From assembly GCA_003116975.1 (NCBI GenBank), contig BGKB01000035.1:540897-604896 (forward strand): a stretch of DNA of 64,000 nucleotides, in the 5' to 3' direction. Origin of the DNA: Aurantiochytrium sp. KH105 (taxonomy: Eukaryota > Sar > Bigyra > Thraustochytrida > Thraustochytriidae). The notes under the pieces are model-generated. The model made no database searches. It saw only the letters and a program-made list of their open reading frames with translations, and was not told the origin of the DNA. A program made the translations under genes and the position numbers. Below, one piece after another: positions 59,223 to 64,000 of the stretch (its first letter is position 1; each line of letters starts with the position of its first letter).

Positions 59223-61343
59223 ATGAACTCGGCGGAGAAACACGCCGCGTCGAAGTTCGCGCTCAAAGGTGGCGGGAAGAAGGGCGCCGGCGGTGGGCCG
59301 GCCCACATGCCGCTCGTGCGCGTGGCCAGCCTGTGCGAGGAAGATCCGAACATTGTGCGCGATGTCGTCATGGAGGCGCACAACACGCCGCCAAGGCCCA
59401 AAACGCTGTCTTCGCGACCGCGCGTTGGATCGGAGTCGATGAAGGGGTTGCGACATCGCACCGCTTCGACGGGCAGCGTCGGTCCTACGGCGGCCGAGAT
59501 TCGCAGACTTCGGCGTGGCGTTCTCGACTGGTCTTCGGTCGCAGTCATGAGCGTAATGGAGGTACTCGAGTGGCGCGAGGACGATGAGCACGAACTCGAT
59601 GTCGTGGTGGTTCCTGTCATTGACAATATGGCAAGTCTACAAGTTGCAGGGAACTCGGAAAAGCAAGATAATGGTGAGGGCCAAATCGCCGGCCAAGAGC
59701 CAAACGAACGCGAGATCGTGTCTCCGGCCGCTGCAACCTCCTTGGAGGTGGCTGATCCCGCCCCGGCTCCGGTCGCGCCAAAAAAGCATTCGCGTCGAAC
59801 GAAACGACGGCGTCGCACCAAGATCGTGTGCGCTATTGGCCCAGCCTCGCGCGAGGTGGAGACCTTGGTCGACCTTTTGGAGGCCGGCATGAACGTTGCC
59901 CGACTCAACTTTTCGCATGGCGATCATGCGTATCATGCGCAGACCATCAAGAATCTGCAGGAAGCTATTCGGCTCCGCGAAGAGAGGAGTGGGGCGCAGT
60001 GCCACTGCGCCATTCTCATGGACACCAAGGGACCAGAGATTCGGACAGGAATGCTCAAGGATCATGAGCCGGTAGAACTCGTGACAGGACAACTTCTCGA
60101 GATCACGACAGATTATACTCTTGCAGGCACCTCGTCCATTGTGGCGTGCAGCTACAAGGAGCTCTGCGCCTCGGTGCGGGTGGGAGGCCTCATTCTGATT
60201 GCAGATGGATCGATTCAGACGCGCGTCGAAGAGATTCGCGAGACAAGTGTCATGGTTCGCGTGGAGAACGACGCCATCTTGGAAGAACGCAAGAACATGA
60301 ATCTTCCCGGCGTCTCGATCCGGCTGCCGGGCATCACGGCCAAAGACAAGTACGATTTGGAGAACTTTGCGCTCAATTATCCCGTCGACATTGTCTCTGG
60401 GTCCTTTATTCGGACGGCGGCTAATGTACGCGCCGTACGCGCGTGTTTGGGTGAGCGAGGGAAGCACATTCGCGTGCATGCGAAGATTGAGAGTGTCGAG
60501 GCACTGCGAAACATTGAGGAGATTATTGAAGAGGCAGACGGCGTGCACGTGAGTCGAGGCGACTTGGGAATGGAACTCCCGCTGAGCAAGTTGTTTTTGG
60601 CGCAAAAGGGCGTCATTCGTTGGGCCAACCTTGCGGGGAAGCCGGTCGTGACGAGCACGCAGATGCTTGATTCCATGACGACGCGACCCCGGCCCACCAA
60701 TGCCGAGTGCAGCGACGTGGCTAATGCGGTGCTTGACGGCACGGATTGCGTCATGCTCTCCGCGGAAACGGCCAAGGGCATGTATCCTCGTGAGTCCGTG
60801 GCGACCATGGGACGCATCATTTCCGAAGCTGAGCGGGTCATCAACTATGAGTCGTACTACAGCACCATTCGCGCCGAGGTGCTCTCGAAGGGCAAGGTGT
60901 CTGTGGTGGAGGCTCTTGCGTCGTCCGCAGTGGAGACTTCGCTCGACGTTCGCGCGGATCTCATTGTGGTGGTGTCCGATTCCGGGGACCTGGCCCGACT
61001 CGTTGCCAAGTACCGTCCCACGGCTCGCATCGTGGTTGTCACAAGCAACAGGGTGACTGCACACCATATGTCGGTTTGTCGAGGCGTGTCTGCCATGCTT
61101 TTGGACGAGGCTGTTTTGAGCGCTCCGCGCGAAATGTGGCTGCACGCCAACAAGTACATTCTCGACCGTGCGTGGGCTCGCGTTGGTGCCATGGTCACTT
61201 TGGTCACGTCCCTGTACGACATCAAGGACAGCGTCAAGCAGCGACTTGATCAGCAGCCCAACAAATTTGAGCGGCTCAGCAACACCATCGAGGTGCGAAA
61301 GATTTCTCTCGACGCCTACGAGACCATGGTCGAGGCTGCCTAG
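59223..61343 (+). CDS. PYK: Pyruvate kinase with long N-terminal extension
   Basis: 706 residues; the catalytic core starts near 197 (TKIVCAIGPASREVETL). Active-site motifs are intact: RLNFSHGDHAYH, MDTKGPEIRTG, HAKIES with Lys421 (general acid/base helper), SRGDLGMELP, the substrate-loop STQMLDSM and RPTNAECSDVANAVLDGTDCVMLSAETAKG. It converts phosphoenolpyruvate and ADP to pyruvate and ATP. The first ~195 residues are unusual: about 60 disordered basic residues, a predicted helix-strand block at 85-130, then a low-complexity EP/AP linker and a KKHSRRTKRRRR cluster. No clear mitochondrial or plastid peptide is seen. The C-terminal allosteric domain is present to the end. Divergent from TMEM234. 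Confidence 0.93.
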   Translation: MNSAEKHAASKFALKGGGKKGAGGGPAHMPLVRVASLCEEDPNIVRDVVMEAHNTPPRPKTLSSRPRVGSESMKGLRHRTASTGSVGPTAAEIRRLRRGVLDWSSVAVMSVMEVLEWREDDEHELDVVVVPVIDNMASLQVAGNSEKQDNGEGQIAGQEPNEREIVSPAAATSLEVADPAPAPVAPKKHSRRTKRRRRTKIVCAIGPASREVETLVDLLEAGMNVARLNFSHGDHAYHAQTIKNLQEAIRLREERSGAQCHCAILMDTKGPEIRTGMLKDHEPVELVTGQLLEITTDYTLAGTSSIVACSYKELCASVRVGGLILIADGSIQTRVEEIRETSVMVRVENDAILEERKNMNLPGVSIRLPGITAKDKYDLENFALNYPVDIVSGSFIRTAANVRAVRACLGERGKHIRVHAKIESVEALRNIEEIIEEADGVHVSRGDLGMELPLSKLFLAQKGVIRWANLAGKPVVTSTQMLDSMTTRPRPTNAECSDVANAVLDGTDCVMLSAETAKGMYPRESVATMGRIISEAERVINYESYYSTIRAEVLSKGKVSVVEALASSAVETSLDVRADLIVVVSDSGDLARLVAKYRPTARIVVVTSNRVTAHHMSVCRGVSAMLLDEAVLSAPREMWLHANKYILDRAWARVGAMVTLVTSLYDIKDSVKQRLDQQPNKFERLSNTIEVRKISLDAYETMVEAA

Positions 61344-61567
61344 CTTCTAAACTTATATATTATAAATGTATGTAGTACCCTGAAAATGGACAAGCCTGCG
61401 GTGTGGCGAGAGTCTAGTCTACACATCGAACCAAACAAGGGTGACGAAAGCTTGATTTCCTTTTTCCTCAATTTTTGTTACTTGACACTCCCCGTTGCTA
61501 TTATCAAAATTTCTCTACAAACAAAATAGAATTGTAAGCCGTAACTAGCGTAAGTTTACCAGAAGAG
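61344..61567. other. Pyruvate kinase 3' region and downstream flank of the transposon
   Basis: 224 bases. An A+T-rich string (TTATATATTATAAATG) follows the kinase stop. In Fanzor/TnpB systems the guide RNA is encoded at or just beyond the nuclease gene end, so the minus-strand 3' flank here would be where it lay. I cannot identify its boundaries. Confidence 0.4.
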
Positions 61568-62826
61568 TCACTTCGTGCACGAGATGGATTTGATGTAGAT
61601 ATCACGAGATGATGTCTCTGTCAACAGAGAGACCACAACGATCACATTTATATCGTTTATTCCCACCAAGATTGCGTTTCACGTATCCGCATCTTGTGCA
61701 GGTTTTTGAAGTGTACTCTTCAGGAACGGCCAACGTGTTTCTTACATGTCCGTGGTTTTGAATGAGTTCGTCGCGAAAGCGGCAGTGAGAAAGCATTTGT
61801 ATCTTGCGCTTCGCAGTTGGATGGAGCTTGTGTGATTGGAGGATACTCTTGACACCTTTTTTACCAACCCGGATTTCTTGAAAATTGTCCAGAAGAAAGC
61901 GAATGATCTTGTTGTGTGTGTCTTTGACTTTGTTCTTCATTTTTGCCCAAAGCATTTGCTCTTTGCGCTTGTAGGTCTTCTTTCTATGTATGCGACTTCT
62001 CGTCTTTCCATCCCCATCCCGGGAGCTTCTGATCTGGTCAATACGCTTTGCCAAGTCGAGCATATTGTAAGACTTAAAATTTCCACGTATTTCAGAACTA
62101 GTGGTACGTGGTAAGACGTTGAGTGTTGCGCATAGTTTTGCATTGTTCGAACAGAGTATTTGAAAGTCACGAGCACCTGAATCGAGTGTCGCGTCTTTAA
62201 AAGGTGCTGGTTTGAGCCTTTCTCGCTTTTCTGATATAGAATGATCAGGTACCAACGACCAGCTTCTTCGTGAACGATTTTGCAGTCCTTTTAAATCTTG
62301 GGGAGCTTTCGATTTCGCTTTTTCGAACCTTGACGTTTGTATCGAATGGTCCAAATGGTTCAGCTTTGTCGTCAACATCCAACTTCCACCTATATTTTTT
62401 CATGAGGAAGATGAAGTTGTCATCAAATGCATTGTCCTTGGCGAACATACACTTTTGAACTGGAATAATACCGAATCCACGCTTATCGCGCCTTAACTGA
62501 AAGAGCATTTCGAGCTTTTTGATGTTTCCAGCTTTTTTGTTCGAAAAAGCGGATTTGTAAGCTGCTCCTAGACGACGCAGCGTGTCACCACGCATATGGT
62601 ATGGAAGACTCTCAATCTCGTCATCGAGCTTTCGTTTCTTCTCGACTTCACGATTCAACGCTTTACGAGTTGGCCCAAGAAAGTATCTTTTCATCTCCGC
62701 AAAACGAGTACCGACATTTCCTTTCTTGATATGCTCAAGAGCCAGGTTCCATAATGCACGTAGTGCGTGGTGAATTTTGGCAAAAATTTGTCTTTGACGA
62801 AATGTTGGTCGTAGCTTAACTTTCAT
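61568..62826 (-). pseudogene. TnpB/Fanzor2-type RNA-guided nuclease, frameshifted
   Basis: The gene should start at the ATG ending at 62826 with MKVKLRPTFRQRQIFAKIHH, the usual TnpB N-terminus. Frame A runs to a stop at 62245. The following ~60 bases use a second frame (CKIVHEEAGRWYLII, about 62278-62234), then a third frame carries the rest: LDSGARDFQ with the RuvC-I Asp at 62181-62183, a basic helix, then SHCRFRDELI, PEEYTSKTC, a four-Cys zinc finger (CTRCG to CDRCG) and VDRDII with the RuvC-III Asp. A last shift near 61,610 cuts off a 13-residue end still readable to 61568. At least three frame changes make an active product unlikely. Most catalytic landmarks survive, so the loss is recent. 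Fanzor2 proteins are known RNA-guided nucleases linked to IS607 elements. Confidence 0.87.
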
Positions 62827-63423
62827 CGATCTTAAGTCGCTTTCTTCCGCGTCGTCTGCTTCGTTGACCATAGAGACGACACCCGAAGACGGTGATGATT
62901 GAGATGAGGTCTTTGACGAGCTCATCGTGCGGTCCTCCATCGTCTTCTTGTCCATTTGGATGGACAACTCGAATTGACCCTCCTTTCGAAGTGACAATCC
63001 ACTCGAGCAAGTTGAATGCGAGTCTACAGAGACGGTCTCTATAGGTAACCACGACTTCATCGAGTCCTCCACGCATTGCGAGTTCCAGAATGGAACGAGG
63101 ACCGCGTCTTTTGAAGTCGATACCCGACCCAATGATTTGGATGACTTGATGATCGGGGAAGTTTTCTTCGACCTAAGCGACTTGTCTGGAGAGGTCGTCC
63201 TTCTGCGCTTTGCTACTGACTCTTGCATAACATAGTCGACGTCGCTCAACTTCCGTTTGCCCAGGAGTGTCCGAGTTGATGTAAAAGTCCTCGATACATA
63301 CTCGTCGGTGTCCGCCTTTTGTTCTGTTACTTCTGACTTTGTTGTCGTTAGCGTAGTTTCTCTGTGCAATCCGAGCCGCAAAGCGGCGACTCCAACGGAG
63401 ACGTAATGTCGCTCGTCTGACAT
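62816..63423 (-). pseudogene. IS607-family serine recombinase (tnpA-like), broken
   Basis: The ATG at 63423 opens MSDERHYVSVGVAALRLGLH, a MerR-like helix-turn-helix typical of IS607 TnpA. Near 63,355 the frame shifts; the next frame continues NKVRSNRTKGGHRRV (end of the DNA-binding part) and LCYARVSSKAQ with the catalytic Ser at 63215-63217. It then meets a TAG at 63173-63175. Beyond this stop the same frame resumes with homologous sequence (DHQVIQ, GSGIDFKRRG), then VVVTYRDRLCRLAF and ITVFGCRLYG, ending at 62816. So one frameshift and one nonsense codon break an otherwise complete gene of ~200 residues. IS607 recombinases excise and insert elements through a Ser-DNA link. Confidence 0.87.
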
Positions 63424-64000
63424 CGAGCGACACCACCAACCCGAGTTTCGGTTTTGCTGGAAACGATTTGGTGTTGTTTTGGTGTTGTTTTCGATTCAGG
63501 TCACTTCCACACCCGGTCGTATCGTATAGCCCCGCGACAAGTACTAACAGCTTTAGCCCCCAGCCGCGAACCATGCCGTGCCACCTGCCGACTGTCAACG
63601 CAGAGGTGGCCCTGGTCACGCGTGGCTGCCGAGAACTTTTACGTCTGCCGCAATCGTCGGAGCGCAAGCCGCCAGATAGACTGCTTGCGAAGTCCGGCCG
63701 ACTAGACGTCCTCTCCACTCAGCCTCTAGCAGCGCAGCTAGAAGGCCAAGAATTCTGCACTTACGATGGGCGGTTCTGCACTTGCAAATGCGTCGAGCAG
63801 CACTTGCAATCTGGATGTTGTGCCACCAGCGCCAATGCCTCGCTCAATGGGTTGACAGTGAGGCCGGCTGGTCACTGCTGCAATGACTGGATGCTAGTAG
63901 AGCAATGGACTGGCTGCCACTTGCAAGCCGAATTACTCGACTTGCTGGACAATTATTGTAGACACTTGGAAGAGAAAAATAGCCCTAAGCGATAGTAAGA
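63424..64000. other. Right-edge flank, no recognised gene
   Basis: 577 bases. The first ~70 bases probably contain the transposon's upstream flank, including a GGTGTTGTTTT direct repeat. An open plus-strand frame (63468-63995) is Cys/Leu/Ser-rich without known domain; CACTTGCAA occurs three times in it (about 63779, 63801, 63918). I do not support it as a gene. Confidence 0.4.

Follow-up and report, generated by a model that had tools for sequence, protein, structure and literature searches.

A decayed IS607/Fanzor2 element in Aurantiochytrium sp. KH105 and computational evidence for a nuclease arm overprinted on tnpA in the Fanzor clade

The window analysed here, a 64,000-nucleotide stretch of contig BGKB01000035.1 (C35) from the thraustochytrid Aurantiochytrium sp. 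KH105, carries a mobile element of the insertion sequence family IS607. The element has a serine recombinase gene, tnpA, followed by a gene for a TnpB-like RNA-guided nuclease of the Fanzor2 type. Comparison with related loci indicates that, across the clade of this nuclease, its reading frame continues upstream through tnpA, where it appears to encode an N-terminal arm of the nuclease. A preliminary description made from the letters alone had recognized an IS607 element with Fanzor2/TnpB in a eukaryotic genome; the recombinase and nuclease profiles, the Fanzor fingerprint of a copy on contig C21 and a match to the solved mimivirus Fanzor2 9b0l bear this out. It had placed the element at 61568..63423, where the element indeed lies, but this range is slightly short: the true span is 61492-63531. 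The features are as follows.

61492..63531, minus strand: IS607/Fanzor2 element, truncated at the 5' end and decayed (blastn to 17 other genome loci, common right end AACGG)
62816..63423, minus strand: TnpA (serine recombinase) remnant with N-terminal helix-turn-helix (HTH) part and catalytic part, frameshifted (profiles, C21 alignment)
61568..62826, minus strand: TnpB/Fanzor2 nuclease remnant (profiles, C21 alignment)
62827..63260, upper limit approximate, minus strand: candidate +1 nuclease-frame extension inside TnpA (open frame 62245-63423 and clade-wide tests)
63034..63093, minus strand: conserved arm motif in the nuclease frame, PFWNSQCVEDSMKSWLPIET (alignment of relatives)
62163..62186, minus strand: RuvC-I, LDSGARDF, read LDPGARDF in the C21 copy (window and C21 translations)
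61605..61727, minus strand: alternative glutamate, zinc finger and damaged RuvC-III (VPEEYTSKTC...DRDIIS)
61492..61567, minus strand: non-coding right end, ending in GG, predicted 3' part of the guide (re/omega) RNA, by the family's description in PMC10711439
63532..63987, no strand: left flank common to the C73a copy, with a dispersed repeat at 63697-63987
59223..61343, plus strand: pyruvate kinase gene, convergent neighbour (pyruvate kinase profile, E 5.5e-123)

The body shared with other genome copies covers 61512-63531 by blast, and the right end of the window copy falls at 61492. Of 18 loci, 17 have AACGG at the right end or adjoining it, C73b being the exception, and 13 have exactly ATAGTAACGG; internally deleted copies keep this end as well. 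Near the left end, GG occurs in seven of nine copies examined, at varying distance, a count not set against chance level. Fuller copies reach further left, to about CTGAAGCAGTTACAAC, an end that the window copy lacks. The element and the pyruvate kinase gene, a normal gene as first described, lie tail to tail, 148 bp apart.

The two element genes overlap by 11 bases in the IS607 order, as the preliminary description had it: the last base of the TnpA stop codon is 62816, TnpB begins with an ATG at 62826, and the overlap is identical in the C21 copy. The motifs it had read, ARVSS and YRDRLCR in the recombinase and LDSGARDF, a zinc finger and DRD in the nuclease, are all present. The recombinase piece 62819-63076 matches Pfam Resolvase (E 8.9e-6) and the NCBIfam IS607 transposase (E 5.5e-21, 75 bits, cut-off 110). 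The nuclease piece 61602-62378 matches Cas12f1-like_TNB (E 1.5e-10) and guided_TnpB (E 7.7e-14, 51.8 bits, cut-off 100), and the N-terminal piece of TnpB matches guided_TnpB (E 1.3e-6, 28 bits, cut-off 100). The NCBIfam scores stay under their cut-offs because the window pieces are fragments.

The window copy is dead: it lacks the left end, indels interrupt both genes, and RuvC-III is damaged. In alignment with the C21 copy it shows 7.8% substitutions (144/1856) and four indels, namely a 10-bp deletion in the HTH part of TnpA and, in TnpB, two single-base deletions and a 5-bp deletion at RuvC-III. Its RuvC-I reads DSG, not DPG. The decayed frame 62245-63423 joins a TnpA-like HTH stretch, the arm and the nuclease.

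The assembly (76 Mb, 367 contigs) contains at least 18 loci of this family including the window copy, a lower bound counted from 42 match rows, spread over many contigs with differing flanks. Searching it for intact copies yields at least one with both genes complete: C21 encodes a TnpA of 205 amino acids, matching NF033518 at 173 bits (cut-off 110), Resolvase (E 1.1e-17), MerR and HTH_17, and a TnpB of 421. A second family occupies five loci (C200, C201, C165, C242, C266), with pieces 26-30% identical; three of these (C165, C242, C266) have complete TnpA frames of 224-227 amino acids and nuclease frames of 644-647 codons. Across all five (L043-L047, on C201, C200, C266, C165 and C242) nuclease frames run to 578-647 codons, and TnpA is complete in at least three copies. 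IS607 TnpA is found in both families.

Contig C9 repeats the order of C35 at three tested stretches over about 15 kb, at 94-97% identity, and both (L049, L033, L058, L059) have the element beside the pyruvate kinase gene. By this sequence comparison the two are probably uncollapsed haplotypes, so the 18 loci may include alleles. Because the window copy is dead and the genome holds at least 18 loci of its family and five of the second, the family is a resident, decaying transposon family rather than a fresh arrival. Recent lateral arrival, proposed in the preliminary description, is rejected on the substitutions and indels that separate the window copy from C21 and on its presence in two haplotype-like contigs.

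Several further observations concern the genome copies. Joined-flank searches for C21, C90 and C168a gave no clean empty insertion site; C5 and C49 hold parts of the flanks in a different arrangement, and the C168a flanks match only themselves. In the internally deleted copies (L037, L040, L041, L039, L042) the right end is kept, in some of them along with the left. Breakpoints recur: one at window-equivalent 62886 is common to L037 and L040, another at 61907 to L040 and L041, as would be seen if deleted forms had transposed or if deletion favoured certain sites. In the predicted guide RNA, 0 of 19 pairs have changes on both sides, the copies being too similar for covariation to inform. Weak TnpB-like matches at C11:181834, C18:780580, C27:519352 and C175:137684 are possibly older Fanzor remnants. 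The flanking repeat at 63697-63987 is dispersed, about 290 bp long and has 45 matches, many copies stopping at the same base.

The nuclease is best read from the C21 copy, which has LDPGARDF, also found in C132, an alternative glutamate (VPEEYTSKTC), a zinc finger and DRDINGARNI. The alternative glutamate, E370, is invariant in all 15 sequences of alignment A1 and is present in the window copy. According to PMC10711439, DPG in RuvC-I together with an alternative glutamate before the zinc finger is the Fanzor fingerprint, and the C21 nuclease, by its motifs, carries it. The host is eukaryotic, as for Fanzor2, with a 76-Mb genome, a pyruvate kinase neighbour, many contigs and an IS607 context; Fanzor1 belongs to eukaryotic DNA transposons without IS607 TnpA, which is present here. 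The nearest solved structure, by sequence (E 3.2e-25) and by fold, is 9b0l.

The best database relatives, P0001-P0004, are metagenomic proteins 32-41% identical, the best match over the nuclease reaching 41%. In a quick tree of 84 rows, in which row L086 is the second nuclease of its locus and not the TnpA-adjacent one, they group with the window's family at full support. Such nearest relatives speak neither for nor against an origin from a giant virus or a bacterium. The second family stands elsewhere, with support of 85 for the wider group, which implies at least two Fanzor2 acquisitions by the genome or an old divergence. A clade of 70 rows with both genome families is split from the side of six canonical rows at 99 in the Shimodaira-Hasegawa-like approximate likelihood ratio test (SH-aLRT), the root not being known, and neither family groups with the canonical-glutamate IS607 TnpBs.

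The better-kept genome copies have nuclease frames of 589-679 codons, though TnpB needs only about 420, and loci were therefore gathered to test the frame through TnpA. They comprised 58 from a viral collection and the best 80 of 156 bacterial ones, chosen by TnpB match and not by frame length; 84, genome copies included, had both genes complete enough, many being near copies of one another. In all 84, TnpB lies in the +1 frame of TnpA, and in 81 the nuclease frame is free of stops over at least 52% of TnpA. The exceptions, L099, L103 and L109, are viral-collection loci with the same +1 relation; L099 and L103 are AT-rich.

Stop codons were compared with synonymous shuffles of the TnpA catalytic domain that keep the protein and codon use, over 27 clusters at 60% TnpA identity. 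With L099 and L103 left out (25 clusters), the catalytic domain has 12 stops in +1 against 78.6 expected; the +2 frame has 213 against 238.6, and the HTH part has 41 in +1 against 48.4. All 27 clusters give 52 against 122.9 for +1 in the catalytic domain and 102 against 187 over the whole gene. A six-frame test puts +1 at z -11.2, and the antisense frames show no depletion. Controls came from plasmid records of ordinary IS607 elements (205 matched, 60 listed, 17 used, three of them dropped for want of an annotated TnpA). Eleven of the 14 have the +1 relation and three another; the 11 carry 94 +1 stops against 99.5 expected, and their nuclease frames reach only 2-39 codons upstream.

Synonymous sites of the catalytic part are constrained. 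For pairs at 50-70% identity (n=2064), four-fold third-base identity is 0.504 in the catalytic part, against 0.278 in TnpB and 0.281 in the HTH part; the direction is the same at 30-50% (0.423 against 0.271) and at 70-90% (0.714 against 0.482). Controls give 0.246 against 0.248 (48 pairs) and 0.381 against 0.421 (four closer pairs). Identity peaks at TnpA residues 110-129 and 150-159. At the first base of Leu codons, silent in both frames, identity is as expected, and the third base is constrained. In the +1 frame 12 columns reach at least 80% conservation, against a null mean of 0.03; controls have 0 against 0.4. A +1 Ser is kept in 22 of 25, with AGY codons where TnpA has Lys and TCN codons where it has Val, an aromatic residue in 25 of 25 over TnpA Ile or Leu, and a Trp in 25 of 25 over TnpA Leu CTG/TTG.

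At the protein level, an alignment of 70 sequences gives the majority arm pattern P-[YF]-W-N...C.E.S-S..L-W-L-P-T-x-T-D...S-W-F-S. A few rows are without parts of it, P0002 is without the region, and P0036, P0044, P0007, P0030, P0031 and P0041 retain the motif in part and differently spaced, as seen by eye and in protein only. The same 70 sequences accompanied the C21 nuclease frame, taken from an ATG near the TnpA start (621 amino acids), in an AlphaFold2 prediction. The core is well predicted and the arm mostly disordered, but confidence rises to about 90 over an island at residues 109-130, which suggests that an ordered arm segment docks on the nuclease core in the model. In VIA-align, the pairing of 9b0l with the model starts at model residue 110 (chain residue 53), that of the other 49 listed rows at 192-198; the comparison barely tests model parts outside 193-621. 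The pairing at residue 110 implies that, at the place of the arm, a segment of the solved Fanzor2 is ordered.

How the arm might be translated can be considered copy by copy. A nuclease-frame ATG lies seven bases after the TnpA ATG in five of ten copies (C21, C132, C168a, C73b, C90); the same position is ACG in C109, C73a, C9 and the window copy, and C14 differs. Its placement in C21 would permit leaky scanning, and frameshifting is a possible route. Two database proteins, P0004 (647 amino acids) and P0009 (669 amino acids, 17 member sequences), carry in one frame an HTH like that of TnpA, then the arm motif, then the nuclease, and are either natural fusions or frameshifted copies.

These results fit a mechanism in which, in working members, the serine TnpA would move the element as a circle through crossover at GG dinucleotides. 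Movement as a circle with GG crossover is known from IS607. By analogy with its family, the Fanzor2 nuclease, guided by RNA from the right end, would cut DNA and so favour retention of the element. In the Fanzor2/pro-Fanzor clade the nuclease frame would run upstream through tnpA in +1, encoding an N-terminal arm that is predicted to be mostly disordered and whose conserved segment PFWN...LWLP...SWFS probably docks on the core; the catalytic part of tnpA would therefore be dual-coding. An overprinted nuclease arm in the tnpA of the Fanzor clade is well supported by computation, through the frame relation, the stop depletion, the second-frame conservation, the absence of such depletion and conservation from the ordinary IS607 controls, the predicted order of the segment and the alignment of a solved Fanzor2 there. 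The arm would be translated with the nuclease, from an internal start, by leaky scanning or by frameshift, would dock on the core and would matter for function.

The whole explanation, a dead member of a resident family together with a clade-wide overprinted nuclease arm in a dual-coding tnpA, is very probable in our judgement. With somewhat less confidence we consider it likely that tnpA is dual-coding across the clade with an arm that docks, and that the arrangement was born in bacterial IS607 elements before entry into eukaryotes, locks the two genes together and persists in mimivirus L79. A number of results weigh against these readings. Stops in +2 are also slightly low (z -2.6), and +2 conserved columns are raised as well, 10 against 1.42; since the latter follows from fixed third bases, the stop and Leu tests have to carry the +1 case. 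Third-base pairs are not independent, and the constraint is patchy, about 0.3-0.4 outside the two peak stretches. One control, L204, is nominally depleted in +1 (6 against 9.5, p 0.006). The clusters L099 and L103 (with L109), on the ordinary-IS607 side of the tree, have no extension, and no extension start codon or ribosome site holds across clusters among the listed starts inspected. VIA-align ranges give only first and last residues. The L027 cluster alone has 0 catalytic-domain stops against 1.5 (p 0.14, not significant; p 0.007 over the whole gene). Among recent copies in this genome change at third positions is not suppressed: 105, 140 and 232 catalytic-part differences fall on the first, second and third positions of TnpA codons. 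Relaxation of the double constraint in this genome is one possible reason, excessive decay of the copies another; given also the L027 result, the clade-wide claim is independent of this genome.

The element could instead be an ordinary decayed IS607/Fanzor2 transposon whose open frame is a by-product of TnpA sequence and codon use, with TnpB starting near the TnpA end. Such transposons are already published in eukaryotes (PMC3627910; PMC10711439), annotated plasmid controls do start TnpB there, and the L027 cluster alone is not significant. Yet shuffles that preserve TnpA protein and codon use predict 78.6 stops, whereas the real sequences have 12; in sum, no stop depletion appears in ordinary IS607 elements, and +1 residues stay constant where TnpA residues vary, which makes this account improbable. 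Slightly less probable still is a nucleic-acid signal in tnpA, such as a transposase DNA site, an RNA structure or a translation signal, as the source of the synonymous constraint. The patchiness, the peaks at residues 110-129 and 150-159 and the raised +2 residue conservation would suit it. It sits poorly with the Leu codons, whose doubly silent first base is at expected identity while the third is constrained, and with a Ser maintained through two unrelated codon boxes. It must also meet a strong stop depletion in +1 only, over the whole catalytic domain, and a segment that is predicted to be ordered and from which the solved mimivirus Fanzor2 aligns.

A variant of the overprinted arm has +1 frameshifting out of TnpA produce a fusion of TnpA DNA-binding domain, arm and nuclease. 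The open frame starts within or just after the HTH domain in most clusters, P0004 and P0009 by eye have just this layout, and so does the window's decayed frame 62245-63423. The joining in P0004 and P0009 may however be a frameshift of decay, as in the window, and the frame opens only at TnpA residue 71-100 in six clusters (L043, L061, L066, L080, L129, L138); the variant is unlikely, though less so than the accounts above. Least credible is an assembly or contamination artefact, bacterial DNA joined to the end of a protist contig. The element does lie about 0.5 kb from the end of C35, with a G+C content (about 0.43) under that of its flank; contamination, a concern already raised in the preliminary description, is nevertheless very unlikely and was rejected because at least 18 loci with different flanks lie on many contigs and C9, which matches at 94-97%, has this insertion next to its pyruvate kinase gene too.

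Taken alone, the element is one more Fanzor2 family, useful since at least one copy has both genes complete. If the overprinted arm is confirmed, current annotations of pro-Fanzor and some Fanzor2 nucleases would miss the real N-terminus, a point relevant to expressing these proteins. Dual coding would also give a reason for this TnpB lineage to stay tied to the IS607 TnpA until captured by other transposons, and the TnpB tree could then be used to date the origin of a conserved protein segment that arose by overprinting.

That eukaryotic IS607 elements can carry Fanzor2 has been published (PMC3627910; PMC10711439). Like the Fanzor2 systems of eukaryote and giant-virus IS607 elements (Bao and Jurka 2013; mimivirus L79, PDB 9b0l), the present family combines a serine TnpA with a TnpB-like nuclease bearing DPG, the alternative glutamate and a zinc finger, and 9b0l is its closest solved relative; unlike them, it is distinct in sequence (best match 41%) and its window copy is dead. 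Ordinary IS607 TnpBs, represented by the plasmid controls (Selenomonas, Bifidobacterium, Microcystis), share the upstream serine TnpA and, in 11 of 14, the +1 relation, but have neither an open nuclease frame through TnpA nor synonymous-site constraint. Saito et al. 2023 (PMC10432273) describe disordered N-terminal regions in NlovFz2 (96 amino acids) and MmeFz2 (61 amino acids). These resemble the arm as additional disordered N-terminal regions of Fanzor2; by that description they are unique to each protein, whereas here a conserved motif is shared and lies inside tnpA. No report of an overprinted TnpB or Fanzor N-terminus was found in searches of the open-licence PMC literature, and the overprinted nuclease arm in a transposase gene, recognized by comparison with relatives, looks new. 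The pro-Fanzors, bacterial and mostly cyanobacterial IS607 TnpBs (PMC10711439), differ in having bacterial hosts and in being about 21-30% identical to the genome's extended nuclease, and share the IS607 TnpA, the +1 relation, the DPG and alternative glutamate (found by a simple motif scan in 69 of the 84 loci) and the putative overprinted arm with its PYWN...LWLP...SWFST motif.
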